From contig NZ_FOKW01000001.1 of assembly GCF_900112205.1 (NCBI RefSeq), positions 558,001 to 622,000 on the forward strand: a stretch of 64,000 bases of DNA. The letters are read 5' to 3'. Source of the stretch: Natronobacterium haloterrestre (GTDB lineage: Archaea > Halobacteriota > Halobacteria > Halobacteriales > Natrialbaceae). The translations under genes and the position numbers were made by a program. The notes beneath the pieces were generated by a model that ran no database searches, was not told the origin of the DNA, and worked only from the letters and a program-made list of their open reading frames with translations. Of this stretch, positions 14,225 through 54,868 are shown one piece after another. Positions within the stretch are counted from its first letter, which is position 1. The number at the start of each line of letters is the position of its first letter.

Positions 14225-14485
14225 ATGGGAACATCAGACGACGAGCAACCGATCGAAGAGGACGCCGTCGGCGTCGATCCCGCGGTCTGGGAGGAGACGG
14301 CCGACGACCTCCTCGAGGAGAGTCCGTACGATACGGACCTCGGCAAGGAGATGAGCAGGGACGCCGTGCGGGTCAGCGCGGGTCGCATGTCGGAAGCGGA
14401 GTTCCACGAGAAATATCACGACGCCGTCCTCGAGGAGTTCGGCGTCGACGACCGGCCGCTCGAGGGGGGTGACGACGATGAGTAA
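14225..14485 (+). CDS. small acidic protein at the head of the molybdoenzyme operon
   Basis: An 86-aa acidic protein. The segment SPYDTDLGKEMSRDAVRVSA followed by 'MSEAEFHEKYHDAVLEEFG' resembles the N-terminal extension that I recall on some haloarchaeal Fe-S subunits of this enzyme class (4Fe-4S ferredoxin N-terminal domain); here it is a separate gene. It has no cysteines. Its stop overlaps the start of the catalytic subunit by 8 nt, so translation is coupled. It is probably an assembly or docking partner of the complex, but that is an inference. Confidence 0.75.
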   Translation: MGTSDDEQPIEEDAVGVDPAVWEETADDLLEESPYDTDLGKEMSRDAVRVSAGRMSEAEFHEKYHDAVLEEFGVDDRPLEGGDDDE

Positions 14486-16967: not shown

Positions 16968-17701
16968 CGAACTACGGAATGGTAATCGATCTGGAGCGGT
17001 GTATCGGCTGTCACGCCTGTGCCGTGAGCTGTAGCCAGGAGAACAACGTCTCGCTTGACCAGCAGTGGAACCGGATCCTCACCGAGGGCGGGGATTCGAT
17101 GGATACGCCGGAGGGCAAGTACCCCGAAGACGGTCGGGACGGAACACTCTCGATGAACCACCTGCCGATGGCGTGCCAGCACTGTGAGAACGCACCCTGC
17201 GTAAAGGTGTGCCCGGTCAACGCGACCTACAAGCGCGACGACGGCATCGTGGCGATCGACTACGACAAGTGCATGGGCTGTCGCTACTGCATGAGCGCCT
17301 GTCCGTACAACGCGCGGGTGTTCAACTACGACGAGCCGGAGACGCTCCCTGCCGAGGGCACGGGCAACGTCGAGCAGCGCGAACAGGGCGTCGTCGAGAA
17401 GTGTACGTTCTGTAGCCACCGGGTCGAGGAGGACCTCGATCCAGCCTGTACCGTCGCTTGCCCAGCCGACGCCCGGATCTTCGGCGACCTCGACGACGAG
17501 GAAAGCACCGTCTCGCGGTACATCAACAAGTACGAAACGGATCAACTCCTCGAGGAGCTAGAGACCGACCCCAACACCTACTACGTTCGTGGCGACATGA
17601 CCCCCGGTCGGAAGCGACACGGAAACGAACTCGAGGGGACCGAGAAGAAGGAAGTCGGCAACCCTGACGGTGTCGCAACCGACGGAGGTGAGAGCGAATG
17701 A
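16964..17701 (+). CDS. four-cluster [4Fe-4S] electron-transfer subunit (DmsB-like)
   Basis: A 245-aa Fe-S subunit that relays electrons between the membrane anchor and the catalytic subunit. Four cysteine groups are visible: CIGCHACAVSC, CQHCENAPCVKVCP, CMGCRYCMSACP and CTFCSHRVEEDLDPACTVACP. The fourth group with its spaced cysteines is the DmsB/PsrB pattern. It has no signal peptide and probably travels with the Tat-exported catalytic subunit. ATGA overlaps at both ends couple it to the neighbouring genes. Confidence 0.95.
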   Translation: MTNYGMVIDLERCIGCHACAVSCSQENNVSLDQQWNRILTEGGDSMDTPEGKYPEDGRDGTLSMNHLPMACQHCENAPCVKVCPVNATYKRDDGIVAIDYDKCMGCRYCMSACPYNARVFNYDEPETLPAEGTGNVEQREQGVVEKCTFCSHRVEEDLDPACTVACPADARIFGDLDDEESTVSRYINKYETDQLLEELETDPNTYYVRGDMTPGRKRHGNELEGTEKKEVGNPDGVATDGGESE

Positions 17702-19074
17702 GTACCCGACGGGATTCCGGTGTCGTCGTCCCGCAGTTCGGCACCCGAGGGAAAGCGTGGCTCGCTCTGCTGGGGATCGTCATCGTCGCGGGCCTCGCCG
17801 CTTGGGGCTACCAGCTTAGCCGCGGGCTCGCCGTCACCGGCATGGACAACGTCTTCTCTTGGGGGCTGTACATCATGCTGTTCGTCTTCTTCATCGGCCT
17901 CTCGGCCGGCGGCCTGATCATCTCGAGCGCGCCGAAGTTTTTCCACTCGAAGCGCTACGACAGTCTGGCGGCGCTGGGCGTGCTGGTGAGCCTGGGCTGT
18001 ATCGTCGTCGCCGGACTGTTGATCCTGCCGGATCTGGGCAAGCCGAGTCGCGTCACCGGGTTCCTGACCTCGCCGGACTTCCGGTCGCCGATGGTCTGGG
18101 ACTTCGGGATCGTGCTCCTCTATGGGCTGTTCAACGTGGGCTACCTCTGGCTGTTGACCCGGCGCGACCTCGCGAAGATGGGGTCGCAACTGGCGTTCGG
18201 CGTCGAGGATACTCCCGCAGGCCGCGAGCGCGACCGAAAGCTCGCCTTCTGGGCGGCCGCCGTCGCGATGCCGCTGGCGATCGCGTTGCACTCGGTGACG
18301 GGCTGGATCTTCGCGACCCAGATCGGCCGCGGCGACTGGTTCAACCCGCTGGTCGCGCCGATGTTCATCATGAAGGCGCTGGTGTCTGGACTGGCGCTGT
18401 TGCTGGTGACGGCGATCGTCGTCGACCGAGTCACGCGGTTCCGGATGCCTCGCGAGCTGGTCCCGGAACTCGGGAAGGTACTCGGCATCTTCGTTGCGGT
18501 CCACATCGTCTACCTGGTGGCCGCCGAGCGGCTGCCCCACGCGTGGGCCGCGAACTTCGAGTTCTGGTCGATCACGAGCGCCTTTCTGGTCGGCGACACG
18601 GTCCACTTCTGGCTGTGGACGGTCGTCGGCGGCGCGGTGCCGATCGCCCTGCTCGCCGTGCCGTCCTGGCGGCGGAAGGTGGGCGTCGTCTTCGCGGCCA
18701 GCGTCGCGGCGATCGTGGGCATCCTCTTCGAGGGGGTGTACCTGATCTTCACGGGCTACCGTGACCTGAACATCGACGCCTCCCCCGGTGTTACGACCGG
18801 TACTGACTACACGGGCATCGGCTCCGACGTCTGGGCGACGGTCGGCAGCTACACGCCGACGCTGATCGAGTTGCTGGTGACGCTCGGCATCGTCGCTGTC
18901 GGTGCGATGATCGTCACGCTCGGCCTGCGGTTCCTGCCCGTCCAGCCCGGCGGCCGAAAACCCTCGGCCGTCGAAGCTGGCGAAACTGAGAAGTCCGACG
19001 CTGAAACGCCACCGGACGCGGCCGTCGCGGATGGCGGTTACGTCGTCGACGGGACCGACGGTGATCGCCGATGA
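17698..19074 (+). CDS. NrfD/PsrC-type membrane anchor subunit
   Basis: A 458-aa integral membrane protein with about nine to ten hydrophobic helices, starting near residue 15 (AWLALLGIVIVAGLAAWGYQ). The family signature region is 'FSWGLYIMLFVFFIGLSAGG' in the first third. NrfD/PsrC subunits oxidise quinol and hand electrons to the Fe-S subunit. The last ~60 residues are soluble and acidic. ATGA overlaps link it to the Fe-S subunit upstream and the chaperone downstream, completing the A-B-C arrangement. Confidence 0.93.
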   Translation: MSTRRDSGVVVPQFGTRGKAWLALLGIVIVAGLAAWGYQLSRGLAVTGMDNVFSWGLYIMLFVFFIGLSAGGLIISSAPKFFHSKRYDSLAALGVLVSLGCIVVAGLLILPDLGKPSRVTGFLTSPDFRSPMVWDFGIVLLYGLFNVGYLWLLTRRDLAKMGSQLAFGVEDTPAGRERDRKLAFWAAAVAMPLAIALHSVTGWIFATQIGRGDWFNPLVAPMFIMKALVSGLALLLVTAIVVDRVTRFRMPRELVPELGKVLGIFVAVHIVYLVAAERLPHAWAANFEFWSITSAFLVGDTVHFWLWTVVGGAVPIALLAVPSWRRKVGVVFAASVAAIVGILFEGVYLIFTGYRDLNIDASPGVTTGTDYTGIGSDVWATVGSYTPTLIELLVTLGIVAVGAMIVTLGLRFLPVQPGGRKPSAVEAGETEKSDAETPPDAAVADGGYVVDGTDGDRR

Positions 19075-19619
19075 GCGGCGCGCGTCCCGAACGGGCGGAA
19101 ACGGAACCCGCGGCCGCGGAACTGGCCACCGGTTACGCGATGCTGGCCCGCTGCTGGCGGCAACCGACCGCTGACGTGGTCGACGCGGTGACGACCGAAC
19201 TGCTCGAGGAGGTCGACTCCTCGACCGCAACTACGGACGTTACGGGCCTTCGGACGGAACACGCACGGCTGTTCGTCGGTCCCGGTGACCCACCGTGTCC
19301 GCCCTACGAGAGCGTCTACCGCGACGACGGCGACGTGCTGGGGCCGACGACCCGCGCGGCCGTCGAGTGGTATCGCGCCTACGATCTGGGCCTCGAGCCG
19401 GACTGGCCCGACCTGCCCGACCACATCGCGACCGAACTCGAGTTCGTCGCACACCTGCTCGAGCGCGGGGAGGTCGACGCCTGCGAGCAGTTCCTCGACG
19501 AACACCTCCGCCAGTGGACCGGGGAGTTCTGCGAGCGGGTGCGCGCGGAGACGCGTGAGCCCTACTACGAGGCGCTGGCGACGGCGACCGAGGCCGCGAT
19601 CAGCGCGGAGCAGCGCTGA
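19071..19619 (+). CDS. TorD/DmsD-family redox enzyme maturation chaperone
   Basis: A 182-aa chaperone that binds the Tat leader and apo-form of molybdoenzymes during cofactor insertion. The family hallmarks are 'EHARLFVGPGDPPCPPYESV', then YRDDGDVLGPTT, and the helical tail 'HIATELEFVAHLL' followed by 'FLDEHLRQW'. It overlaps the anchor gene by 4 nt (ATGA). Its client is most likely the molybdopterin subunit at 14478. A second TorD-like gene at 43135 goes with the formate dehydrogenase locus. Confidence 0.92.
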   Translation: MSGARPERAETEPAAAELATGYAMLARCWRQPTADVVDAVTTELLEEVDSSTATTDVTGLRTEHARLFVGPGDPPCPPYESVYRDDGDVLGPTTRAAVEWYRAYDLGLEPDWPDLPDHIATELEFVAHLLERGEVDACEQFLDEHLRQWTGEFCERVRAETREPYYEALATATEAAISAEQR

Positions 19620-41600: not shown

Positions 41601-41999
41601 ATGCGAATGGAGCTCCGGGTCTGCAAGCACTGCTACGAGGGGGACCACGGCAATCCGCGGAAGACGGCGGTGACGAACGACATGGTCGAATGTGCCCGGA
41701 CGATCCGGGAGTACAAGGACCTGATCGAGATCGACTCGCTGTACGTGACGATGGTCGAGGAGGGCGACAGCGGCGGCGCGGAGGCGCTGTCGGTCTACGT
41801 CGCGAGTATCCGCGAGAACCAGGTAGAGATCAACGACACGCAACTCGTCATGGAGGACGACGACGACAACGTCCTCGTCTATCCCGAACCCGAGGACATC
41901 CTCGAGGTGCTGACGCGCAACCTCGACCAGATCGCCGATCAGACGCGCCAGGACGTCTCGGTCGAACTCTCCCCGGAGAGCGCGGAGATCCTCACCTGA
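41601..41999 (+). CDS. conserved haloarchaeal protein with N-terminal CxxC
   Basis: A 132-aa protein starting MRMELRVCKHCYEGDHGN. The CKHC pair could bind zinc. The body is mixed alpha/beta (SLYVTMVEEGDSGGAEALSV, LVYPEPEDILEVLTRNL) with no known catalytic motif. I do not recognise the family. The TATA-like cttatcag near 41571 is about 25-30 nt upstream of the ATG, so the message is leaderless. An ATG two codons later is also possible. Confidence 0.75.
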   Translation: MRMELRVCKHCYEGDHGNPRKTAVTNDMVECARTIREYKDLIEIDSLYVTMVEEGDSGGAEALSVYVASIRENQVEINDTQLVMEDDDDNVLVYPEPEDILEVLTRNLDQIADQTRQDVSVELSPESAEILT

Positions 42000-42087
42000 T
42001 GCGTACCGGGTCGCCGGTCCGCCTCGAGACGGTCGGGGTTGCAACGGTAACGCCGATCGTTTTCAGGGAGGTCGGAGTAGGGAGCCC

Positions 42088-42348
42088 ATGGGATTTCGAA
42101 CCGCAGTCGAGCACAACCCCCTGGTCGCGTTCGGCCTCCTGTTCGCGGCGGTGTGGACCGGCGTCGTCGGGGTTCAGATCGTCAGCCAGATGCGTGGGGT
42201 CACGCCCGGTAGCTGGGTCGGCCAGCACGGATTCGGCGGACTGATGGGCCTGATCGTGATGGGCGCGTTCCTGGCGCTCGTCCTCGTCGCGTTCGCCGAA
42301 CTCGGCGAGCCGGATCCCGCGCCGGCGGAGTGGCCGCCGGAGGAGTGA
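42088..42348 (+). CDS. small two-helix membrane protein
   Basis: An 86-aa protein with hydrophobic segments LVAFGLLFAAVWTGVVGVQI and 'GLIVMGAFLALVLVAFAEL' separated by a short polar turn, and an acidic C-terminus. No motif is recognised. It is one of four small genes in tandem on this strand. Confidence 0.7.
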   Translation: MGFRTAVEHNPLVAFGLLFAAVWTGVVGVQIVSQMRGVTPGSWVGQHGFGGLMGLIVMGAFLALVLVAFAELGEPDPAPAEWPPEE

Positions 42349-42455
42349 TTCTCGATGGCCGCTGATCCAGGCCCCGAACCGGCGACTCGCCGGTCCCGCC
42401 CGCTGCGGGACGAACCACGCCGCTCGAGCGCGACCGACGGAGGTGCCGCGCCGGG

Positions 42456-42821
42456 ATGACGTCGCCGATCGCCATCTCCGTCAGCGACCGGTTCCGTGAT
42501 GCCGCGGCCGAGTGGGGCGACGACCGCCTCATGGACGTCGAGGACGCCCTCGAGGTCAAGGCCGAACAGGCGCTGCTCGAGATCGAACACCTCGTGGCCG
42601 GCGAGACCGACGTCACCTTCGAGGTCGACGTCGACGGCGGGACGATCCGCCACGAGCCGAGCGACGACCTCGCCGCGTTCCTCGAGCGCCAGGCCAACGC
42701 ACACGGCGTCGACCCCGCGGCGGTCCTCGAGATGCACGTCGACCTGTTCGCGCGGGCGTTCCTCGAGGACGGGGGCGACGCGGCGGAATCGACGCCGGAC
42801 GACCCCCGTCCCGGTCGGTAG
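42456..42821 (+). CDS. small acidic protein of unknown function
   Basis: A 121-aa protein with 'ALEVKAEQALLEIEHLVAGE' and DVTFEVDVDGGTIRHEPSDD followed by a helical region (LAAFLERQANAHGVDPAAVL). No cysteines or membrane helix. The pattern looks like a small globular alpha/beta protein; no family recognised. Confidence 0.65.
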   Translation: MTSPIAISVSDRFRDAAAEWGDDRLMDVEDALEVKAEQALLEIEHLVAGETDVTFEVDVDGGTIRHEPSDDLAAFLERQANAHGVDPAAVLEMHVDLFARAFLEDGGDAAESTPDDPRPGR

Positions 42822-43134: not shown

Positions 43135-43767
43135 TCAGGCCATCCCGGTCGCGATCTCCTCCTCGAACGCGACGTAGCCCTCGAGTACGTCGGCGACCGC
43201 TGCGTAGAACGGTTCGTCCGTTCGCTCGCGGACGTCGTCCGCGAGGTCGTCGATCCACTCCGAGAGGTGTTCCTGGTGGAAGACCCGCTGGTAACCGAAC
43301 GTTTCCTCGTAGCCCTCGCCTTGTCGCCGGACGAGATTCCGGAGGAAGGCCAGCTCTACGGCGACGTAATCGTTCTCCTCGGGGTAGTCCTCCGGCGGGG
43401 ACCAGCCGGCGGCCCCGTAGCTGGCCTCGACCTCGGCCAGCCCCGCTCCGCGAAAGTCGGTGTCCTCGCGGTAGTAGGTCTCGTGGGGGAGGATCGGCGG
43501 CCGCGGCCCGACGAACAGGCGGGTGAACTCCCGCTCGAGGTCGTCCCGGACCGCCTCGACGTCGCGGCCCTCGTTGTCCGCGACGAACGCCTCGAGTCGC
43601 TCGAACCCCCGATCGAGCGGCTCGCCGACGCTCCCGTCCGGGACGGCGATCTCGTCGTCCAGCAGCGTCTCGACGAACTCCCGGCTCGGCACGTCGGCGA
43701 ACGCGTCGATCAGGAAGTTCACCAGCTCGAGCCGCGCCTCGTAGAGGGCCTCCTGGTCGACGCTCAT
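43135..43767 (-). CDS. TorD-like chaperone of the formate dehydrogenase locus
   Basis: A 210-aa TorD/DmsD-family protein: REFTRLFVGPRPPILPHETY, then YYREDTDFRGAGLAEVEAS and a helical tail with DYVAVELAFLRNLVRRQGEG and FHQEHLSEWIDDL. It overlaps the start side of the upstream 716-aa Fe-S protein gene by 4 nt (ATGA), so both belong to one unit. The most likely client is the Tat-exported catalytic subunit encoded divergently at 46168. Confidence 0.88.
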   Translation of the reverse strand: MSVDQEALYEARLELVNFLIDAFADVPSREFVETLLDDEIAVPDGSVGEPLDRGFERLEAFVADNEGRDVEAVRDDLEREFTRLFVGPRPPILPHETYYREDTDFRGAGLAEVEASYGAAGWSPPEDYPEENDYVAVELAFLRNLVRRQGEGYEETFGYQRVFHQEHLSEWIDDLADDVRERTDEPFYAAVADVLEGYVAFEEEIATGMA

Positions 43768-45914
43768 CGGCTCTCACCTCCGGCTTCGCCGCGGTCGTAC
43801 AGCAGTTGCGCGCGGCAGTCGTCGCAGTAGTCGAAGACGCTGCCCGACGCGGTCGGTACGAGCCCGGCGACGCGGTCGCCGACCTCCCCCTCGATCTTCC
43901 GTGCGGTCCCCTCGCTCGCGAACGGCTCGCCGCAGTGGAGACATTCCCGCATCTCCCCCTCGTAGACCTCGGTCCAGGGCTCGCCGTCGCTGCGTTCCGG
44001 CAGCAGGGAGAGGTGGAGCCCGTCGTGCATCGTGATGGCGTCCTCGACGCAGCCCTCCTCGCAGAGCCCGCAGTTGACACAGCGTTCGTGGTTGAACTCG
44101 AGGACGGCCTCGTCCTCGTCGCGCCGGATCGCGTCGGTCGGGCAGATGGTCGAACACGTCGGCGTGAACGTGCAGGCGTCGTCGACGGCCATCCGGCCGA
44201 AGTCCTTCAGTCCGCGGATCACCTCGCGGTCGGGGTCGACGTGCTCGAGGATCGCCCGCACGCTCTCTAACGTCCAGCCGTGGCTGTCGAAGGGAGGGTT
44301 CTCCCGGTCGGGATCGGTCTCTATCCCCCCGGTTGCCTCGTGCTCGCCGTCGGGGATCGGCGAGGGCTCGAGTTCGACGGCGAACGTCGAGATCGCTTCC
44401 ACGAACGCGCCCGGGTCGGCCGCGTCGGGCGCGAAGAACGCGACCCGTTCGCCGAGGTCGAGGTCCCGGGTCGCCCGGTTGAGCCGGTCGACGAGGTCGG
44501 CCTTCGGCTCCGGGCCGGAGTGTCGGCAGTCGCCGCCACAGCCGACGATCGCGACGCCGTCGGCCCCGCAGGCGAGCGCGTGCATCGCGTGGGCCTCGCC
44601 GACGGTGTCCGTACAGTTCACGCGCACCGGGAGGATCGGCGGGTACTCGACGTCGACCTTCCCCGCGGCCGAGAGCCGGCCGTACTCCGTGAGCGCGTCG
44701 TCGGCCTCCTCGGAGCAGACGAAGGCGACGATCGGTGCGTCGACGTCCGACTCGGACCGGCCCAGCAGCCAGCCGCCCTCCTCGTCGGTCGGCCGGCACA
44801 GCGCCTCGACCTCGCGGGCGATGCGCTCGTTCGACGGCTCGCGAAGCCGGGTCGCCCCGGTCGGACAGGAACTGGTACAGGCCCCGCAGTTCTGACACAT
44901 GTCCTCGTGGAACTCGACCTCGTCGATCCGGGACCGCTCGACGGCGTCGTGAGGGCAGGCCTCGACGCACTCGTTGCAGCCCATCTGGCTCGAGTCGCCC
45001 GCGGCGCAGACGTCCATCTCGAGGTCGAGGTGGGCGGGTTTCTCGATCCCGCCGAGGTGCTTTCGCACGGCCGAGATCGTCGCCGGGTCGATGGGCGCGG
45101 TGTAGAACCCGACGCGACCGCCCCGCGTACGGCGGTCGGCGGCCGGGTAGACGATCTGGTCGAACTCGAGGGTCCGTTCGACGCCGTCCATCTCGATGGC
45201 GTCGGTGGGGCAGACGTCGGTCCACGCGCCGTCGGGCGCGTCGGGATCGATGTCGACGGGGTAGCGGGTGACCTTTCCGTCCGGGCCATCGTGGACGCAC
45301 TTCATACAGGAGATGCAGTCCTCGGTGACGCGGGACTCGAGGCGGACGGTGAACTCGCCGAAGCGGCCGTCGACGCCGACGACGCGGCCCCGCTCGATCG
45401 TGACGTCCCCGAGGTCGGCCCCGCTGTCGACGTACTCGCGGCCGTCGGCGATCAGCGTCACGTCGGCGTCGTCGGCCAGCGCGGCGGCCGTCTCGGGGTC
45501 GCCGACGACCGCGACGCTGTCGCCGGCGTCGCTCGTGATCGTCCGGGGAATCGACTCGGCTTCGAGGCCGGCCGTGCGGGCGTTGATCATGCGCGCAGTC
45601 TTTGCCGTCGCGCCCGCCTCGTCGTGGACCCAGCCCGCGCCCTCGCGCTGGTCGACGAACGAGACTGCGTCCGGGTGGACGCCCTGCGCTTCCGCGACGC
45701 GCTCGAGTTTCCGCTGGACGCCTTCTTCGGGGCAGGTGACGATCACCTCGTCCAGGTCGTACTCGTCGATCACCTCCTCCATCGCGGGCAACCCGTCGGC
45801 ACAGAGCAGGCTCGAACTCGCCGCGACGTCGACGCCTTCGATGCCCTCGCGCGCAGCCTCGAGGTCGACCTCGCACGTGTCGGCACAGGAACAGACGAAG
45901 CTCCCTACGTTCAT
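43764..45914 (-). CDS. HdrA-like/ferredoxin/MvhD fusion electron-transfer protein
   Basis: A 716-aa multi-domain protein. Residues 1-120 match the HdrA N-terminal region (VCSCADTC, VTCPEEG, WVHDEAGATAKTARMI). Residues ~131-195 hold what remains of the flavin domain: VAVVGDPETAAAL lacks the GxGxxG dinucleotide motif. Ferredoxin groups follow (C200, C203, C206; C313, C316, C320; C340, C343, C346, C350). An MvhD-type domain spans about 394-520 with C400, C434, C449, C459, C463 (GCGGDCRHSG). A third ferredoxin region (C591-C632) and a final CxxC pair of pairs (C658, C661, C697, C700) end the protein. No signal peptide: cytosolic. It is divergent from fdhA. Confidence 0.85.
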   Translation of the reverse strand: MNVGSFVCSCADTCEVDLEAAREGIEGVDVAASSSLLCADGLPAMEEVIDEYDLDEVIVTCPEEGVQRKLERVAEAQGVHPDAVSFVDQREGAGWVHDEAGATAKTARMINARTAGLEAESIPRTITSDAGDSVAVVGDPETAAALADDADVTLIADGREYVDSGADLGDVTIERGRVVGVDGRFGEFTVRLESRVTEDCISCMKCVHDGPDGKVTRYPVDIDPDAPDGAWTDVCPTDAIEMDGVERTLEFDQIVYPAADRRTRGGRVGFYTAPIDPATISAVRKHLGGIEKPAHLDLEMDVCAAGDSSQMGCNECVEACPHDAVERSRIDEVEFHEDMCQNCGACTSSCPTGATRLREPSNERIAREVEALCRPTDEEGGWLLGRSESDVDAPIVAFVCSEEADDALTEYGRLSAAGKVDVEYPPILPVRVNCTDTVGEAHAMHALACGADGVAIVGCGGDCRHSGPEPKADLVDRLNRATRDLDLGERVAFFAPDAADPGAFVEAISTFAVELEPSPIPDGEHEATGGIETDPDRENPPFDSHGWTLESVRAILEHVDPDREVIRGLKDFGRMAVDDACTFTPTCSTICPTDAIRRDEDEAVLEFNHERCVNCGLCEEGCVEDAITMHDGLHLSLLPERSDGEPWTEVYEGEMRECLHCGEPFASEGTARKIEGEVGDRVAGLVPTASGSVFDYCDDCRAQLLYDRGEAGGESR

Positions 45915-46167
45915 CTCGTTGCGCTATACCGTGGCAATGTAATAGCGTTGTGTCACTCGAACGTGAAAATGACTCGTAGTTGAACTTATATCCCGTATTA
46001 CTTTGCGTATTTCATGGAAAATTGTAGATAACGTGTTACTACTGCAGCCCTTGCACGCACTTCCCGTGTGAATATTCATAACCCTCGGTCCGGACGTTGG
46101 CGCTAGGTATGGGTCTCTATAACACGTCGGAACGAACGACGCGGGACGTAGCGATCGGGGGCGCGTT
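45915..46167. promoter_or_regulatory. divergent promoter region of the formate dehydrogenase locus
   Basis: 253 bp of unusually AT-rich sequence between the HdrA-like gene and fdhA. Candidate TATA elements are tctctataaca near 46111 for fdhA, and on the minus strand gctattacatt near 45940 or ggatataag near 45986 for the fusion gene. Shared control is likely because both sides belong to one process. Confidence 0.55.
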
Positions 46168-49100
46168 ATGAGCGTGCAGGACGATCCGGTCACCATCGAC
46201 CTCGACCGGCGCTCGTTCATGAAAGCCAGCGCCCTCGCGGGAGGGCTGTTCCTCGGCGGCGGCGCGTCCGGGCACGCGCTGGGCGGAACCCAGGAGTCGG
46301 ACGCGGACGACGGCGTTTCGAGCGACACCGAGACCGAGAAGGTTATCTGTAACTACTGTGCCGTCGGCTGTGGCTTCAAGGCGGTCAAGGACGGCAACTC
46401 CTTCGTCGGTCAGGAGCCGTGGTTCGAGAACCCGATCAACAACGGCTCGCTCTGTTCGAAGGGGGCGGGCATCCTCGAGACCGAGCACTCGCCCAAGCGA
46501 CTGAAACACCCGATGCGCAAGGTCGACGGCGAGTGGCGTCGGGTCTCCTGGCAGGACGCCTACGAGGAGATCGCGGACACGTGGGAGGAGACGATCGACG
46601 AGTACAGCCGCGAGAGCGTCATGCTGATGGGGAGCGCCCACCACTCGAACGAGGCTGCCTACGCCAGCCGCAAGTTCGCGGCGTTCATGGGGACGAACAA
46701 CGTCGACCACCAGGCGCGGATCTGTCACTCGCCGACCGTCACCGGCCTCGCCAACACGTGGGGCTTCGGCGCGATGACGAACACGATCAACGACTACCGC
46801 AACTTCGATCTGCTCATCATCCTCGGGCAGAACCCGGCCGAGTCCCACCCGATCGCGATGCAGCACATCCTCGAGGGGCAGGCCCGCGGCGGGACCATCG
46901 TCTCCATCGACCCCCGGTACACGAAGACCTCGGCCCACGCCGACTACTTCTACCGCCTCCGGCCGGGGACGGACGTCGCCCTGGTCTTCGGCCTGCTCAA
47001 CTACATTCGCGAGCAGGGCGAACTCGACAACGAGTTCCTCGAGGGCCGCGTGATGGGGTGGCCCGACGTCGAGTCCGAACTCGACCAGTACGACCTCGAG
47101 ACGGTCTCCGATATCACCTGGATCGACGAGGGCGACCTCGAGGAGATCGGCGACCTGATCGTCGAGAACAGCCCGCACATCCAGGTCGAGTGGGCGATGG
47201 GCGGCACCCAGCACAACAACGGGACCCAGAACATCCGCGCGTACGCCATCTTCAGCCTCGCGACCGGGAGCGCGGCCCGGTCCGGCGGCGGCCTGCAGGT
47301 GATGCGCGGCCACGCGAACGTGCAGGGTGCGACCGACATGGGCGTCGACGCGAGCATCCTGCCGGGCTACTACGGCGTCGATGCACCCGGATCGTGGGAG
47401 CACTGGGCCGACGTCTGGGACCGCAGCCCCTGGACCAGCGGGAGTACCTCATTCGAGGAACTGTACGACCGGTTCGAGCGGATGCCCGACGAGATGTGGC
47501 AGGGTCTCGAGGTGCCGGCCCAGGTCGAGGAGGAGGACTCGGATCCGGAGGGCGAGGGCGAGGAACCCGAAACAGAGGCCGAGGAGGAGGGCCAGGACGG
47601 CGGCCTCGACCAGGAGACGGCACTCGAGGAACCGGACCCGCAGTCGATGATGTTCCAGAAGGGGCTGACCGTCGCCCGCTGGTACGAGGCCGCACTCGGA
47701 CAGGAGGATCGCCTGCTCGAGTCGGACCTCTATCAGCCCGATCCGCTGAAGATGGCGTTCTTCTGGGGCCACTCGGCGAACTCCATCTCCGAGATGGACC
47801 GGATGAAACAGGCGATGGAGGAACTCGACCTGCTGGTCGTCGTCGACGTCTTCCCCGCGGTCGCCGGCACCCTCCCGGACGACGCGGACGTCCTCCTGTT
47901 GCCGGCCTCGAGCCAGTACGAGCACGTGCGGTCCGTGACTAACTCCCACCGGTCGGTCCAGTGGAGCGAGGCGGTCGCGACGCCGGCACACAACTCGAAG
48001 CCGGACCTCCAGATCTTCCAGGAACTGGCCCAGTACATGGGCTTCGGCGAACACTTCGACTGGGGGACCGGGCAGGCGGTCCACAACGGCCGCAGTTCCT
48101 ACGAGGACACGCTCCGGGAGATCAACCTCGGCGTCCGGTCGATCGGCTACCAGCAATCGCCCGAGAAACTCCAGCAACACCACGAGTACGACTGGGCGTT
48201 CAACACCGACGATCTGCGGGCCGAGAACACGGGGACGCCCGTCGACGGCGACTACTGGTCGCTGCCCTGGCCCTACTGGGGCGACGACCACCCCGGCTCG
48301 CCGATCATCTGGACGAAGGAGGCCGACCCCCGCGACGGCGGCCACGACTTCCGGGAGAACTGGGGGACGCAGGCCCCGACGCCCGACGAGTGGGAGGAGA
48401 TGAACGTCGACCAGGAGTACCCGATGCAGGAGACCTACGATCAGCGGGGAGAGGAGGGCCTCGACCTGATCGCCGATTCGTTCGAGGCGCCGTGGTGGGA
48501 CGACCGTGAGATCGAGGGCGTCCCGTCGTATCCGGGCTACGCGACGTTGCTGCCGGACGACCTGACGAACCCGTCGACGCAGACGACCCCGGTCGAGATG
48601 GCCCTCGACGAGGAGGAGTCGGTGTACGACGCGGCACAGGCCGTCGACGAGGAGTACGGCGACGAGATCGAGGTCGATCCCTCCGAGTACGAGGAGTACG
48701 ACAACCCGCAACCGGATCCGCCGACCGGACGCGGCAAGGCGCGGGCCGTCGTCTGGAACTTCCTCGATACGGTCCCGGTCCACCGCGAACCCGTCGAGAG
48801 CCCCCGGCCGGACCTCGTCGAGGAGTGGCCGGCCAACGGCGAGCAGAACAACTTCTGGCGGCTCGACCAGAACAACGCCACGGTCCAGCAGCGGGCGACC
48901 GAGGCCGTCCACACGGAACTCGGCAGCGACACCGAGAGCGGCCGGACGGTGATCCTCACCTCCGGCCGGCAGGTCGAACATCAGGGCGGCGGCGCCGAGA
49001 CGCGGAACAACGAGTACACCGCCGACCGCCAGCCCCACATGTACGCGGAGATCAGCCCGAACCTGGCCGAGGAGTTGGACGTCGTCGGGGGCGAGGACCA

Positions 49101-49485
49101 CGTCGTCGTCGAGTCCGCGGATAAGGGGACGATCCTCGTCAAGGCGAAGGTGACCAACCGCGTCAACGACGAGGAGATCTTCCTGCCGTACCACTGGGGC
49201 GGCGTCTTCCACGGCGAGGACCGGAGTCCGAACTGGCCCGACGGCACCGAACCGCTCGCGATCGGCGAGAGCGCGAACATCATCACGCCGAGCGGGTTCG
49301 ACGCCGAGACCCAGATGCAGGAGACGAAGTCGGGCGTCGTCCACGTCCAGAAGGCGACCCAGGAGGTCGTCGACGCCCACGACATGGAGTTCATCGATTA
49401 CCCGCAGGACCGGAACGGGCTCGGCACGCAGAAGCAGTACGACGTCCGCGAGTGGGATCTGTACGAAGGAGGCGAACGACTATGA
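46168..49485 (+). CDS. fdhA: formate dehydrogenase catalytic (alpha) subunit, Tat-exported
   Basis: A 1105-aa molybdenum/tungsten-bis-MGD enzyme. Tat signal DRRSFMKASALAGG at residues 13-26. The N-terminal [4Fe-4S] motif is CNYCAVGC...CSKGA. The FDH active-site signature ARICHSPTVTGLANTWGFGA has Cys (C186) in the selenocysteine position with the catalytic His next to it. 'TNTINDYRNFDLLIILGQNP' follows, matching FDH and related enzymes. The C-terminal dinucleotide-binding domain is at 'ADRQPHMYAEISPNLAEELD'. It is longer than usual because of an acidic insertion near residue 450-490 and a long loop. ATGA links it to the Fe-S subunit. Confidence 0.92.
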   Translation: MSVQDDPVTIDLDRRSFMKASALAGGLFLGGGASGHALGGTQESDADDGVSSDTETEKVICNYCAVGCGFKAVKDGNSFVGQEPWFENPINNGSLCSKGAGILETEHSPKRLKHPMRKVDGEWRRVSWQDAYEEIADTWEETIDEYSRESVMLMGSAHHSNEAAYASRKFAAFMGTNNVDHQARICHSPTVTGLANTWGFGAMTNTINDYRNFDLLIILGQNPAESHPIAMQHILEGQARGGTIVSIDPRYTKTSAHADYFYRLRPGTDVALVFGLLNYIREQGELDNEFLEGRVMGWPDVESELDQYDLETVSDITWIDEGDLEEIGDLIVENSPHIQVEWAMGGTQHNNGTQNIRAYAIFSLATGSAARSGGGLQVMRGHANVQGATDMGVDASILPGYYGVDAPGSWEHWADVWDRSPWTSGSTSFEELYDRFERMPDEMWQGLEVPAQVEEEDSDPEGEGEEPETEAEEEGQDGGLDQETALEEPDPQSMMFQKGLTVARWYEAALGQEDRLLESDLYQPDPLKMAFFWGHSANSISEMDRMKQAMEELDLLVVVDVFPAVAGTLPDDADVLLLPASSQYEHVRSVTNSHRSVQWSEAVATPAHNSKPDLQIFQELAQYMGFGEHFDWGTGQAVHNGRSSYEDTLREINLGVRSIGYQQSPEKLQQHHEYDWAFNTDDLRAENTGTPVDGDYWSLPWPYWGDDHPGSPIIWTKEADPRDGGHDFRENWGTQAPTPDEWEEMNVDQEYPMQETYDQRGEEGLDLIADSFEAPWWDDREIEGVPSYPGYATLLPDDLTNPSTQTTPVEMALDEEESVYDAAQAVDEEYGDEIEVDPSEYEEYDNPQPDPPTGRGKARAVVWNFLDTVPVHREPVESPRPDLVEEWPANGEQNNFWRLDQNNATVQQRATEAVHTELGSDTESGRTVILTSGRQVEHQGGGAETRNNEYTADRQPHMYAEISPNLAEELDVVGGEDHVVVESADKGTILVKAKVTNRVNDEEIFLPYHWGGVFHGEDRSPNWPDGTEPLAIGESANIITPSGFDAETQMQETKSGVVHVQKATQEVVDAHDMEFIDYPQDRNGLGTQKQYDVREWDLYEGGERL

Positions 49486-50177
49486 CCCAAGAACGGAGCG
49501 ACCGGACCGGACAGGTGATGAGCCAGGGCGTGATGAGCACGGGGGAGGGGATGCGGATCTTCCCCGACGTCGAGGCCTGTATCGACTGTGGCGGCTGTGT
49601 CGTCGCCTGTAAACGCACCTGGGACCGCGAGATCGACAATCAGCGCATCGACATCATGACCATGGCCGAGGGGACCGCCGGCCCGCAGGGCGAAAACGCC
49701 GACAAGACCGGTCGCCTCGAGGCCGGCGAGAACCCCGGCGAGACGAGCCTGCCGATGCAGTGTTACCACTGCCACAACGCCCCCTGCGTCTCGGTCTGCC
49801 CGACGAACGCCCTCCAGAAGGAGGACGACGAGTTCGTGACCGTCCACGAGGACCTCTGTGTCGGCTGTCAGTACTGCCTGTCGGGCTGTCCGTTCGGCGC
49901 GCCGCAGTTCCCCGACAGCGACGACGGGTCGGCCCAGATCTTCGGCACCGGCGGCATCATGGACAAGTGTACCGGCTGCCGCCAGCGACAGGACGTCGGG
50001 AAAGGGCCGGCCTGCGCCGAGGAGTGTGCCACCGACGCGATCCTGGTCGGCGGCGCGGGCGAGATCGCGGACGAACTCGAGTCCCGGGACAGCCAGCCGT
50101 TCTTCAACCGGGAGGCGATGGAGATCATCTTCGGCGAGGAGGAAGCGCAGTTCTTCGAGTCGGGTGATGCGGGATGA
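49482..50177 (+). CDS. formate dehydrogenase Fe-S (beta) subunit
   Basis: A 231-aa protein read from the ATG at 49482 that overlaps the fdhA stop. Four clusters are expected from CIDCGGCVVACKRTW, CYHCHNAPCVSVCP, CVGCQYCLSGCP and CTGCRQRQDVGKGPACAEEC. This is the FdhB/FdnH-type relay between the catalytic subunit and the membrane cytochrome. It has no C-terminal membrane helix, unlike E. coli FdnH, so the anchor must come from the downstream subunits. Confidence 0.93.
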   Translation: MTQERSDRTGQVMSQGVMSTGEGMRIFPDVEACIDCGGCVVACKRTWDREIDNQRIDIMTMAEGTAGPQGENADKTGRLEAGENPGETSLPMQCYHCHNAPCVSVCPTNALQKEDDEFVTVHEDLCVGCQYCLSGCPFGAPQFPDSDDGSAQIFGTGGIMDKCTGCRQRQDVGKGPACAEECATDAILVGGAGEIADELESRDSQPFFNREAMEIIFGEEEAQFFESGDAG

Positions 50178-50818
50178 GCGACGATCGACCGCCCGACGAC
50201 CGCGACCGCACGGCGGACGCCGCGGACGACGCACCCGGGGACGCCTCGAGCGCCGACGACCGGACCGACGGGCAACGGCCCGACGGCGGCCGCGGCGAGG
50301 AACGATCACCGGAACAGGGAGAGTCACGACCCGAGACGGACGAGTCGACGCCGGAGTCGGACGAACGACCGGAACCCGAGCGCGAACCCGACCACGCCGA
50401 CGCCGCGTCCGGCGGTCGCTCCGATCGCATCGCGTTCTGGATCAGCGCGCTGATCGGCCTGGCGCTTGCGGCCGGCTCCATCGCGTTCGTCTCCGGATGG
50501 GCCCCTTTCTTCGAGGAGATCCTGCGGATCCGCCCCTCCGTCGAGGGCGGTGGGATCGGGGCCGACTGGGTCGCCGGCAACACCGAAGCCGTCCTCGAGT
50601 GGCTGATCGTGCTCGTCCACCTCGCGGACGTCGTCATGGGGATCTTCATCCTCCTGATGGTGTTCATCCACTGGGCGGCGTTCCGGCGGCTCGGCGCGCG
50701 GATGCAACCGCCGGGCGGAACGCGTACGCAGGAGGCCGCGGCGGCGACGGACGGCGGGGACCGGACCCGAAGCGACGACCGCGGCGACGGTCGAGAGCGC
50801 GGGGGTGATCGCCCGTGA
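50174..50818 (+). CDS. two-helix membrane protein in the formate dehydrogenase operon
   Basis: A 214-aa protein. The first ~85 residues are a disordered acidic stretch, then two membrane helices (IAFWISALIGLALAAGSIAF and EWLIVLVHLADVVMGIFILL) with His residues in the second (VHLADVV, FIHWAAF) that could ligate haem. The C-terminus is acidic again. I do not recognise the family. ATGA and GTGA overlaps put it between the Fe-S subunit and the cytochrome b, where it may be a structural or quinone-site subunit. Confidence 0.75.
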   Translation: MSDDRPPDDRDRTADAADDAPGDASSADDRTDGQRPDGGRGEERSPEQGESRPETDESTPESDERPEPEREPDHADAASGGRSDRIAFWISALIGLALAAGSIAFVSGWAPFFEEILRIRPSVEGGGIGADWVAGNTEAVLEWLIVLVHLADVVMGIFILLMVFIHWAAFRRLGARMQPPGGTRTQEAAAATDGGDRTRSDDRGDGRERGGDRP

Positions 50819-51909
50819 CCAACCTCGATCACGGCAAGTTCTCGCGGGTCACCACGACCTTCCACTCGCTGCTGGCGCTGACCGTGTTCGTCCTGTTCTT
50901 TACGGGGTACGCCATCGCGTTCAACACCGAACTGTGGTGGCTGGTGGAACTGATGGGCGGCAACGAGGGGGTGCTCTCGATCCACCGGGCGGCCGGCTTC
51001 GCGCTGATCGCCCTCACCGGGTTCTGGGTTCCGTTCATGCTGCTCCGATCCTCGAGTAGGGGGAACTTCAGTGCGATCCTCCCCAGCCCGGACGACCTGT
51101 GGGCGTTCCTCCAGGACGTCAAGTTCGCCCTCGGGATGGCCGACGAGCGCCACCCCGCGGCACGCCAGTTCGCGGGGTTCAAGGCCGAAGAGACGCCGCT
51201 GATATCCTACATCGGGAAAGGCGTCATCTGGATCTTCACCGTGGAGCTGATCCTGTTGATGATCACCGGGTTGCTCATCTGGCGCAAGACCTGGCTGATC
51301 GACGCCTACAACTCCCAGTCGGCCGCGATGGCGTTCGTGGCGTTCCACGGTCTGCTCGGGATCATCATGCTGATGGGCGTGATGTTCCACACGTTCGAGC
51401 ACGGGCTCCACCCCGCGTTCTACCCGGTCGAGATGAAGGCGTTCCTCCCGAAAGACCAGACGCCGAACTTCCACGACGACCCCGACGAGTACGAGACGAC
51501 CGGGATCGAACGGCTCCGCCGCCGCCCCTCCTGGGGGTGGGCGATGAACGTGACGGCCGTACTGGCTGTCGTCGGGATCGTCAGCGTGATGATGGCGAGC
51601 CTCGAGTACGGCGGCTATCCGGTCCCCGACAGGCTGGTGTTCGGCGAGGGAAGCGTCCTCCGGACGATCGGGATCAACGCCGGCATCTTCGTGTTGCTGC
51701 TCGGCCTCGTGCTCTCGATGTACGGCAACGTGTTGCGGGCGCGGTACCTGCGCCAGCGACGGGAACGGGAGCGGGAACGACAGCCCTCGGGGACGGCCGC
51801 CGACGGCGGCGACCCCGGCGGAACGGCGCGATCCGACGGCGGCGAACCAACCGAACGGGACGAGCGCGGCGACCCCGGTGACGGGGAGGACGGCACCAGC
51901 GACGGCTAA
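50815..51909 (+). CDS. formate dehydrogenase cytochrome b (gamma) subunit
   Basis: A 364-aa membrane protein of the FdnI/cytochrome b561 type. Residues ~16-33 (FHSLLALTVFVLFFTGYAI) give helix 1 with a His, SIHRAAGFALIALTGFWVPF helix 2, and 'AFHGLLGIIMLMGVMFHTFE' helix 4 with several His likely to bind two haems b. A fifth hydrophobic segment (NAGIFVLLLGLVLSMYG) precedes an acidic tail with a short Arg/Glu run. The GTG start overlaps the upstream stop. It passes electrons from formate to the quinone pool. Confidence 0.9.
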   Translation: MTNLDHGKFSRVTTTFHSLLALTVFVLFFTGYAIAFNTELWWLVELMGGNEGVLSIHRAAGFALIALTGFWVPFMLLRSSSRGNFSAILPSPDDLWAFLQDVKFALGMADERHPAARQFAGFKAEETPLISYIGKGVIWIFTVELILLMITGLLIWRKTWLIDAYNSQSAAMAFVAFHGLLGIIMLMGVMFHTFEHGLHPAFYPVEMKAFLPKDQTPNFHDDPDEYETTGIERLRRRPSWGWAMNVTAVLAVVGIVSVMMASLEYGGYPVPDRLVFGEGSVLRTIGINAGIFVLLLGLVLSMYGNVLRARYLRQRRERERERQPSGTAADGGDPGGTARSDGGEPTERDERGDPGDGEDGTSDG

Positions 51910-52274: not shown

Positions 52275-53045
52275 CTACTCTAGCTCCCAGTCCGCCTTCT
52301 CCGCGGCCGTCTCGAGCGGGACGAACTCCCAGTCGGCGGCGTCCGCGATCGCCTCATCGCTCGAGTCGGGCCGATCGTTGTCGGCGTCCTCGAGGCCGAC
52401 GACGACCATCCGCTCGGCGTAGAACATCGACGTCCGGTCGATCCCCCGGAGTCGCTCGGCGGGGTCGCTGCCGCTGCCGGTGAAGAAGTCGGCGTCGACG
52501 CCGTGCGTTCGCTGGAACTTCGTGATGCGGTGGGTCTCGACGTCGCCGACGATGCCGATCCAGTCGGCCCACCCCGATGCGGCCGCGAAGACTGCCGCGG
52601 GGTCGGCGAGTCGCCCGAGCGCGTCGTACGTGAACGCCATCGTCATGTCGTCGACGCCGCCGCCGTGCGGCCCTTCGGCGGCCGAGCCGGCGGCTCGCGG
52701 TTCGCCGTTCGGTTCGCCTCCGGTTCCGACGTCCGTTCCGGTCCCGGTTCCGGCGACCGCACCCGCACCGGCCCCGCCGTGCTCGGTCGGGATGCCGGCC
52801 GGTTTGCTCGCGTCGTCCCGCGGAACCCGGGGCGCTGGCTGGGAGTCGGGCTCGGTCGCGTCCACGTCGTCGTCCCCGGAATCGGCCGTCCCCGGTTCCG
52901 TCGTGGCACCTGCCGTGCGGGTCGGCTCCGGTTCCTCCTCCGGCGTTCCCTCGCCGCGCCAGAACCAGTCGCCGCGGTTCGCGTCGGGCTCTTCCTCTTC
53001 GTCGGCGTCGGTCTCGAGGTCGTCGAGGTCGATTCGGTCGGTCAC
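52275..53045 (-). CDS. conserved haloarchaeal protein downstream of the AOR homologue
   Basis: A 256-aa protein. Residues 1-130 are disordered and acidic; residues ~133-256 form a compact domain (MTMAFTYDALGRLADPAAVF, IGIVGDVETHRITKFQRTHG, VDADFFTGSGS, WEFVPLETAAEKADWELE). I recall similar domains in other haloarchaea (a DUF7124-type domain) but cannot confirm. It overlaps the AOR homologue by 4 nt (ATGA), so both are expressed together. Confidence 0.75.
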   Translation of the reverse strand: MTDRIDLDDLETDADEEEEPDANRGDWFWRGEGTPEEEPEPTRTAGATTEPGTADSGDDDVDATEPDSQPAPRVPRDDASKPAGIPTEHGGAGAGAVAGTGTGTDVGTGGEPNGEPRAAGSAAEGPHGGGVDDMTMAFTYDALGRLADPAAVFAAASGWADWIGIVGDVETHRITKFQRTHGVDADFFTGSGSDPAERLRGIDRTSMFYAERMVVVGLEDADNDRPDSSDEAIADAADWEFVPLETAAEKADWELE

Positions 53046-54868
53046 GGGCGGTCACCTCCGGGTTCCCCGTCGCCGATCGACTCCGGCACCGCGAGATCCG
53101 CCAGCCCCAGTCGCTCGAGCGTCGCCCGGGTCGGCCGCCCCCGCTCGTCCCAGCCGCGTCGCTCGTAGTAGCGATCGAGCATCGTCTCGAACGCGTCGGG
53201 ATCGATCGCGGCCCCGTCGTTGGGGCCGCCCTCGAGCGGTTCGGTCAACCGCTCGGGGAGGGCGTCGTCCGCGCGGGAGAATCCCTCGCGGACGTTGAAC
53301 AGGCGGACGAGCGTCCAGACCCGCTCGCCGATACGCTCGAGGGCGGCGGGTTCACGCTCGCGGCCGACGGCCTCGAGCCACTCCGCGATGTGTGCGGGCG
53401 GGAGCGCATCGGCGACGAAGTCGTCGGCAACGAGGCTCCAGCACAGGGCCCGCCGGTTCTGCTCCTCGACGACCGCGGCGACGCGGTCGGCCGTCGTCCA
53501 GTCCGCGCCCGCGAGCGCTTCGGCTTCGACCGGCCGCGCCCGCCGGTGGCAGGCCCCGCGGTCGCTGGTCGCGTACGCGAGCGCCATCGCCGACGCGCCG
53601 CGGGGATCGTAGGAGGAGAGGGCCATCCCCTTGACCGACGGGATCAGGTCCTCGCCGCCGTACTCCGCGGCCGCCGCCTCGACGCCGTCTGCGAGGGCGT
53701 CGCCCAGCGGGGTCGACCGTTCGGCGATCTCCTCGATGAGGTCGCGGGCCGCCGCCTCGTCGCCGAACTCGAGATCGCGCTCGAGGTGGTCCTCCTGGCT
53801 CGCGCGGATCGCCCACGCGACCGCGTTGCCGCTCGAGATCACGTCTTGAGCGAGCCGATCGCAGATCGATCCGAGCGCCGCGACGGCGTCGAAGTCGTCG
53901 ATCCCGAGCCCAGAGCCGAGGGAGATGGGGGTCGCGCCGCGGGGGACGGTCTCCTCTCCGTCCTCCCCTTCCCCGGACTCGCCGTCGGCTCCGCTCGCGC
54001 TCCGGACCCGGAACCCGCCCGGAACCGGGTCGTCGCCCCGTTCCCGCCCGGACGCGGCGGCGCGAGCGGCCTCGATTCCGACGTCTTCCGCGCCGTCGAA
54101 CGCGCCCTCCTGCCACCCCCGGGTCGGGAGCACGCCGACCTCGTCCGCGAAGTCGACAGTCTCGAGGGTCTCGCTGGCAGCCTGCCAGCGACCGATGTCG
54201 TCGTCGGCGAAGGCGGCCTCGTCCCGTCGGCGAAGCGTACGAAGGTCGTCGGTCGGCGTCGGCGGCCCGTCCCGGGCCACGACGGCCTTCAGGCGCTTCG
54301 CGCCCATTACCGCGCCCGCGCCGCCGCGGCCGGCGTGGTGGTCGCCGCCCTCGGACGCGATCGTCGCGTACGAGACGCGTCGCTCGCCGGCGGGGCCGAT
54401 ACACGCGACCGCCGCGTCCGGGAACCGCTCGTCGGTCTCGCGCGCGTCGAGCCCCCACAGGTCGCCGGCCGGTTCGACCGTCACCTTGCCGGCGGCGACC
54501 GAGAGGGCGACCGGCCGCTCCGCCCGCCCGGTCACGAGCACGCCGACGTGGTCCTCGAGCGAGCCCGCGAGCCGACTCGCCATCTCCCCGCCCGCGTAGG
54601 AGTCGAGGAAGGTGCCGGTCAGCGGCGACCGGGTGACGACGACGTACCGCTGTTCGCCTGGCAGGTAGCCCGTCAGCGGGCCAACGAGGAAGAGGAGGAC
54701 GGCGTCGTCGCCGAACGGGTCGGTCCCCGGCTCGAGTTCCTCGTAGAGGTAGCGAGCGCCGAGTCCCTTCCCCCCGAGATACGACCGGAGCCACGCCTCG
54801 GGCACCGGCTCGCTCGTCGCGGACTCGTCGCCCAGATCGACGCGGACGATCGCATCTCGCCGTGCCAT
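53042..54868 (-). CDS. aldehyde ferredoxin oxidoreductase family protein without the Fe-S Cys triad
   Basis: A 608-aa AOR-family protein. The N-terminal tungstopterin domain shows LRSYLGGKGLGARYLYEELE, DPFGDDAVLLFLVGPLTGYL, 'SPLTGTFLDSYAGGEMASRL' and 'YATIASEGGDHHAGRGGAGA'. The C-terminal domain has LALAYATSDRGACHRR-type sequence (MALAYATSDRGACHRRARPV). The usual CxxCxxxC [4Fe-4S] motif is absent: only four Cys occur in the whole protein, and the one in RRALCWSL may match the fourth ligand. It probably keeps pterin binding but not the cluster. Function uncertain. ATGA links it to the gene at 52275. Confidence 0.82.
   Translation of the reverse strand: MARRDAIVRVDLGDESATSEPVPEAWLRSYLGGKGLGARYLYEELEPGTDPFGDDAVLLFLVGPLTGYLPGEQRYVVVTRSPLTGTFLDSYAGGEMASRLAGSLEDHVGVLVTGRAERPVALSVAAGKVTVEPAGDLWGLDARETDERFPDAAVACIGPAGERRVSYATIASEGGDHHAGRGGAGAVMGAKRLKAVVARDGPPTPTDDLRTLRRRDEAAFADDDIGRWQAASETLETVDFADEVGVLPTRGWQEGAFDGAEDVGIEAARAAASGRERGDDPVPGGFRVRSASGADGESGEGEDGEETVPRGATPISLGSGLGIDDFDAVAALGSICDRLAQDVISSGNAVAWAIRASQEDHLERDLEFGDEAAARDLIEEIAERSTPLGDALADGVEAAAAEYGGEDLIPSVKGMALSSYDPRGASAMALAYATSDRGACHRRARPVEAEALAGADWTTADRVAAVVEEQNRRALCWSLVADDFVADALPPAHIAEWLEAVGREREPAALERIGERVWTLVRLFNVREGFSRADDALPERLTEPLEGGPNDGAAIDPDAFETMLDRYYERRGWDERGRPTRATLERLGLADLAVPESIGDGEPGGDRP

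Follow-up and report, generated by a model that had tools for sequence, protein, structure and literature searches.

The 64,000-nucleotide stretch of Natronobacterium haloterrestre DNA analyzed here (contig NZ_FOKW01000001.1, positions 558,001 to 622,000; referred to below as the window) contains a formate dehydrogenase (FDH) locus in which two groups of genes diverge from a common centre. The gene for a multi-Fe-S protein (fes) and torD run leftward, and fdhA, fdhB, a gene for a protein with two transmembrane (TM) segments and a cytochrome b gene run rightward (Table 1). Our check of open reading frames (ORFs) found all six genes where a first-pass annotation, made from the sequence alone, had placed them, and linked genes at 41601-42821 and 52275-54868 extend beyond the span given there. 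The locus is not due to chance, because of the E-values of its products (FdhA against PDB 9vap_A, 1.5e-209) and its conservation. The annotation had read the two arms as an odd pairing of an exported enzyme with a cytosolic electron wire, and thus as a candidate for an undescribed system. In the present study, its observation was confirmed and its interpretation was partly supported: the arms are conserved together, and we slightly favour a role of the Fe-S protein in building the exported enzyme.

Table 1. Features of the formate dehydrogenase locus and its linked genes (positions in the window)
Feature	Position	Strand	Length	Remarks
TorD/NarJ-family chaperone (FdhM/FdhT-like)	43135..43767	-	210 aa	PF02613
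Multi-Fe-S protein (fes)	43764..45914	-	716 aa	Predicted cytosolic; FlpD and several Fer4 model matches
Divergent promoter region	45915..46167		253 bp	Conserved blocks in Natrialbaceae relatives
FdhA	46168..49485	+	1105 aa	Tat-exported catalytic subunit; active-site Cys186-His187
FdhB	49482..50177	+		16-Cys electron-transfer subunit
Acidic protein with 2 TM segments	50174..50818	+		Between FdhB and cytochrome b genes
FdhC	50815..51909	+		Cytochrome b561-family quinone-side subunit; PF01292
C132	41601..41999	+	132 aa	FDH-linked paralogue; CKHC...HGN invariant; model resembles thioredoxin weakly
Small 2-TM protein of island	42088..42348	+
P121 (island protein)	42456..42821	+	121 aa	Without Pfam match
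Long DUF7124 paralogue	52275..53045	-		PF23439, 125.7 bits
Tungsten aldehyde oxidoreductase (AOR) family enzyme	53042..54868	-		PF01314/PF02730

The right arm encodes a respiratory formate dehydrogenase of the standard exported type. A Pfam search identified the MopB, Fe4S4 and MGD-binding domains in FdhA, which has a signal for twin-arginine translocation (Tat; DRRSFMK), ligands for one cluster (Cys61/64/68/96) and the formate dehydrogenase Cys-His motif (ARIC186HSPTV). Its best solved match, 9vap_A ("Formate dehydrogenase molybdopterin-binding subunit FdhA"), has an entry name identical to the product name of Shewanella oneidensis SO_4509 (PMC5826389), and by this shared name is probably the SO_4509 enzyme. 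The 16 Cys residues of FdhB are in four-cluster spacing, enough for four [4Fe-4S] clusters; judged from the sequence, its start is probably not the GTG at 49452 of the listed ORF but the ATG at 49482, which overlaps the stop of fdhA as ATGA. The third product consists of an acidic tail of approximately 85 residues followed by hydrophobic segments at 88-106 and 145-163, and its gene is kept in haloarchaeal loci. The small FDH-operon protein of Variovorax was considered as its counterpart and discarded: the translation is a short lipoprotein-like sequence, and no match was seen. The last product matches PF01292 (75.5 bits, cut-off 30.1) and has six hydrophobic segments. Scores fell below the NCBIfam equivalog cut-offs (130 bits against 240 for FDH3_beta and 440 bits against 666 for Fdh-alpha), and by these cut-offs the enzyme counts as a relative and not as a member. 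The Tat signal, the active-site motif, the four-cluster FdhB and the cytochrome b bear out the earlier description of an exported Cys-type FDH, which probably reduces quinone.

The multi-Fe-S protein of the left arm has 34 Cys residues, and its closest named relative is from Haloterrigena salina (86%). An AlphaFold2 model was built on 66 orthologues, with a mean predicted local distance difference test (pLDDT) score of 89.9; many rows of the VIA-align alignment are present only at residues 129-291 and 350-360, and the N-terminal HdrA and the HycF matches stand on fewer rows. Residues 1-375 of the model resemble HdrA (8rvy_A, Z 16.6, 5.5 Å, 358 residues aligned). Just 163 model residues span HdrA residues 149-576, and thus the flavin domain is mostly deleted; the GxGxxG motif was found neither in the window protein nor in 63 of the 66 orthologue sequences. 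Residues 395-515 match MvhD (Pfam FlpD; 5odh_D, template modelling score 0.69 by target), including the [2Fe-2S] ligands C400/434/459/463. Haloarchaeal members retain these four Cys residues and other archaea part of them; none of the 33 aligned bacterial relatives has them (0/33). Residues 571-707 match HycF of Escherichia coli formate hydrogenlyase (7z0t_F, Z 9.8, 127/136 residues), and C658/661/697/700 superpose on HycF C117/120/155/158, a metal site that faces FdhF and whose redox state has been proposed to tune FdhF binding (PMC9474812). The quartet is invariant in all 66 orthologues, as are the two ferredoxin modules that flank it, save that Thr584 replaces one cluster Cys in haloarchaea. 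These folds, together with the FlpD, Fer4 and PF02613 matches, agree with the first-pass description of a cytosolic Hdr-like protein accompanied by TorD. In contrast to the Hdr/Mvh complexes, with which residues 1-375 and 395-515 have folds in common, the protein is tied to exported enzymes, lacks most of the flavin domain and has no HdrB or HdrC near its gene; CCG domains are encoded on different contigs or at a distance of 164 kb. Unlike HycF, it is fused to HdrA and MvhD parts, and no hydrogenase is among the annotated neighbours.

The match of the chaperone to PF02613 is strong (95.7 bits, cut-off 22.2, E 3.1e-27). The fes and torD genes share 4 nt (43764-43767), and torD follows fes directly, in the same orientation, in 38 of 46 haloarchaeal loci and in 68 of 80 named loci, the latter drawn from Halobacteria, metagenome-assembled genomes of Methanocellales/Methanophagales, and Alpha/Betaproteobacteria. 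TorD is encoded within 6 kb in 76 of these 80 loci and FdhA within 9 kb in 70; among those without a near FdhA, another enzyme takes its place in two, and several others end with the contig or have the genes far apart. Of 391 haloarchaeal genomes, 107 gave a match to the Fe-S protein at E<=1e-20, and the fes-torD pair is divergent from the fdhA-fdhB-TM-cytochrome b genes in 33 of the 42 comparable haloarchaeal loci (32 fetched and the window), a joint conservation whose absence the first-pass annotation had named as one of two grounds against its reading. Of the remaining nine, four have an alternative FDH close by (L060, L061, L068 and L069), one ends at a contig edge (L077) and four have no FDH within approximately 9 kb (L056, L079, L080 and L082). 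In one haloarchaeal lineage (G047/G063, approximately 48% in FdhA), fes is downstream of torD and not divergent. Read by eye, the Fe-S gene of genome G374 (L082:8956-14627) is located beside copper-ATPase-like and sulfite-exporter-like genes, not FDH.

The view of the pairing as odd and undescribed was not supported, since the same neighbourhood of Fe-S protein, TorD and exported FDH is known in Proteobacteria (PMC4464133). In the Variovorax record we read the order DUF3305-DUF3306-4Fe4S-TorD-FdhX-FdhA-FdhB-FdhC directly, in agreement with the published operon survey (PMC4464133), and rearranged forms were found in Sagittula and Bradyrhizobium. The notion of an undescribed pairing was dropped because bacteria carry the same set: the pairing is widespread and already recognised, and it is the haloarchaeal form that is new. 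The Shewanella genes (SO_4506, SO_4507 (FdhT) and fdhAB) and the proteobacterial operons are like the present locus in the Fe-S family, the adjoining TorD, the Tat-exported Cys-type FDH and the cytochrome b, SO_4506 itself being outside the alignment. However, the haloarchaeal loci have an additional 2-TM subunit and C132, P121, DUF7124 and AOR neighbours, and their Fe-S protein keeps the MvhD cluster ligands. FdhX, DUF3305 and DUF3306 gave no tblastn match at the haloarchaeal loci, although a short FdhX could escape. Campylobacter jejuni FdhABC likewise has a TorD-family gene, the essential fdhM, by an exported FDH (PMC4148689); the C. jejuni system has FdhD, whereas none was found in the genome of the window. 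The FDHs of Halodesulfurarchaeum and natronoarchaea (HTSR_1573-1576 and AArc1_1462-5) are also outward-facing and menaquinone-linked, and haloarchaeal FDHs of this topology are known from sulfur- and dimethyl sulfoxide (DMSO)-respiring species (PMC5437934, PMC6176080).

The pair of Fe-S protein and TorD is not formate-specific. In Natronorubrum bangense and at L085-L088 and L124/L127 (L088/L124 and L087/L127 stand for two genomes that each appear in two collections), it is located beside a MopB protein with a Tat signal, a 4Fe-4S protein and NrfD. These NrfD-anchored enzymes are nearest to the ArrA/PhsA type, and the Natronorubrum locus lies near arsenic genes. An RR export motif was present in 119 of 120 FdhA partners (113 by pattern and six on reading, as SRRTFTK, SRRAFTK or DRRGYLK; the exception, L140, is ambiguous) and in all seven NrfD-type MopB entries (7/7), and none of the cytosolic FdhA-like genes of our haloarchaeal survey was beside an Fe-S match. 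A protein that accompanies both TorD and exported enzymes whose chemistry differs looks like an assembly factor.

We consider it slightly better than an even chance that the Fe-S protein is a redox-active partner of TorD in maturation or proofreading. In such a scheme, the left arm would build the enzyme instead of lengthening the electron path. FdhA and FdhB would receive their clusters and Mo/W-bis-molybdopterin guanine dinucleotide in the cytosol before folded export via Tat; TorD would hold the FdhA signal peptide or apo-enzyme, the Fe-S protein would dock on pre-FdhA via its HycF-like Cys-quartet module, and its ferredoxin clusters would reduce the cofactor, or test it, ahead of the hand-over to Tat. 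Formate electrons would then pass from the FdhB clusters through cytochrome b to menaquinone. What we observed is the gene content, the conserved linkage, the link to exported enzymes, the predicted fold, the missing flavin site and that no FdhD was found; the docking, the redox step, the proofreading and quinone as the acceptor are what we infer. The maturation role is preferred because fes and torD overlap and adjoin in both Archaea and Bacteria, because the partners are exported and the pair is retained with an unrelated NrfD-anchored complex, and because the flavin domain is deleted while an invariant quartet occupies the HycF site facing FdhF. Studied proteins may serve as analogies for such a role, not as tests of it: the FDH of C. 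jejuni cannot do without FdhM, a homologue of TorD (PMC4148689), the ferredoxin-like HydN and YsaA raise FDH-H activity and bind FDH-H (PMC6004506), and FdhE is an iron-binding CX2C protein needed only for periplasmic FDHs (PMC10609526). In Shewanella, the Fe-S gene SO_4506, the chaperone gene SO_4507 and fdhAB show a joint response (PMC5826389).

Several points weigh against maturation. As expected of a wire, the protein is made of modules for electron transfer, with two ferredoxin modules almost fully invariant, and haloarchaeal members retain the MvhD [2Fe-2S] ligands. In a few genomes (L056, L079, L080 and L082) fes is away from FDH. Genome G045, a 98%-complete haloarchaeon, has a related FDH and TorD with no Fe-S protein found, and thus the protein is not needed by every such FDH. 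Furthermore, the literature yielded no experiment on any member of the Fe-S family and no mutant phenotype for SO_4505-4507. An electron wire, the proposal of the first-pass annotation, would connect the FDH membrane module with ferredoxin, and perhaps with AOR, by electron transfer on the cytosolic side, and so join formate to low-potential or sulfur metabolism. Its modules of HdrA, MvhD and HycF type are electron carriers with near-invariant cluster ligands, and AOR genes are linked in most haloarchaeal FDH islands. However, FdhA and FdhB work on the outer side and reach quinone by a route of their own, and AOR was not detected at Fe-S loci outside haloarchaea, for which reason it was also rejected as an obligate partner; the MvhD ligands are absent from the aligned bacteria. 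A wire to ferredoxin or sulfur was rejected as first choice, and we regard it as unlikely, because HdrB/C are not near, the flavin site is gone and the pair swaps to an NrfD-anchored enzyme. A regulatory role, in which the Fe-S protein would sense redox or iron state and control expression or export of the enzyme, is consistent with the divergent promoters, with their conserved blocks, and the co-regulation in Shewanella. Since profile searches and the structure match found no DNA-binding or signalling domain in the protein, and its close partner is a chaperone rather than a regulator, such a role seems very improbable.

In Natrialbaceae, both divergent promoters hold conserved blocks. The blocks GCAAATATTCATA, GGTAT...ATAGCAC and CAACGCTATTAC recur in this family only, as judged by inspection, without statistics; the idea of a shared operator was set aside. 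On the fes side, approximately 30 nt separate the CAACGCTATTAC block and the start codon, a spacing like that of a leaderless transcript.

The active site of FDHs needs a sulfido ligand; FdhD delivers the sulfur in studied bacteria and is essential for the FDHs of E. coli. A search for FdhD (PF02634) gave no match in any of 391 haloarchaeal genomes (377 are at least 90% complete), nor in that of the window, although a very diverged FdhD could escape the search; control genomes were positive in 8 of 14 cases. Of 22 non-haloarchaeal carriers of the Fe-S protein, 21 have FdhD as well, for which reason the Fe-S protein alone was rejected as a replacement. A 2023 review names haloarchaea, with FDHs but without fdhD, as an unsolved case (PMC10609526); thus the gap was already noted, and its extent and a list of candidate genes are new. 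To this list the haloarchaeal island adds C132, the small 2-TM protein, P121, the long DUF7124 paralogue and AOR. The genomes with a copy of C132 (65-100% identity) and those with the FDH-type Fe-S gene are the same 12 among 61, and the C132 model (pLDDT 78) shows weak likeness (Z 6-8) to many thioredoxin- or glutathione S-transferase (GST)-like domains, with the invariant CKHC at a helix start.

One possible explanation is FdhD-free maturation of haloarchaeal FDHs by the flavin-less HdrA-MvhD-HycF fusion and TorD, aided by the CKHC protein, which would supply the Mo/W cofactor with sulfur or with reducing power; we consider this unlikely. That the Fe-S protein, TorD, C132 and the long DUF7124 protein jointly perform sulfur transfer to Mo/W in place of FdhD is consistent with the distribution of FdhD and C132 and with the weakly thioredoxin-like model, but is unlikely, given that Fe-S protein and FdhD coexist in Bacteria. 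Moreover, G047 and G045, of another exported-FDH lineage, have neither C132 nor FdhD, and cytosolic FdhA-like enzymes occur without the island; C132 therefore cannot be a general FdhD replacement and is a lead, not an answer. For haloarchaea lacking FdhD, the locus narrows the search for maturation factors to a few conserved candidate genes, and the Fe-S family also occurs in Proteobacteria, where deletion and assay are possible. It is also a caution not to take Hdr-like domains as a sign of energy coupling where their gene is linked to that of a chaperone.

Nearly all haloarchaea have DUF7124 (59/61). The island copy is a longer, diverged second copy; second copies were found elsewhere too, and thus the link of DUF7124 with FDH is not exclusive. 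The AOR subfamily of 53042-54868 is also located near cytosolic FdhA-like genes of other haloarchaea (e.g. G014, G020, G034, G048, G052 and G058), which suggests a wider AOR-FDH link, perhaps in formaldehyde or formate handling. At 14469-19619, the window has a second exported molybdoenzyme set, with a Tat-signal MopB protein (832 aa), a DsrO-like Fe-S subunit (209.7 bits, cut-off 200) and NrfD; this DMSO/Psr-like set has its own TorD, without the multi-Fe-S protein. Automatic resistance prediction names an 84-aa lipoprotein-like FDH-operon protein of a Variovorax plasmid (L044:13817-14068) as CAE-1 beta-lactamase, which is probably a mis-annotation.

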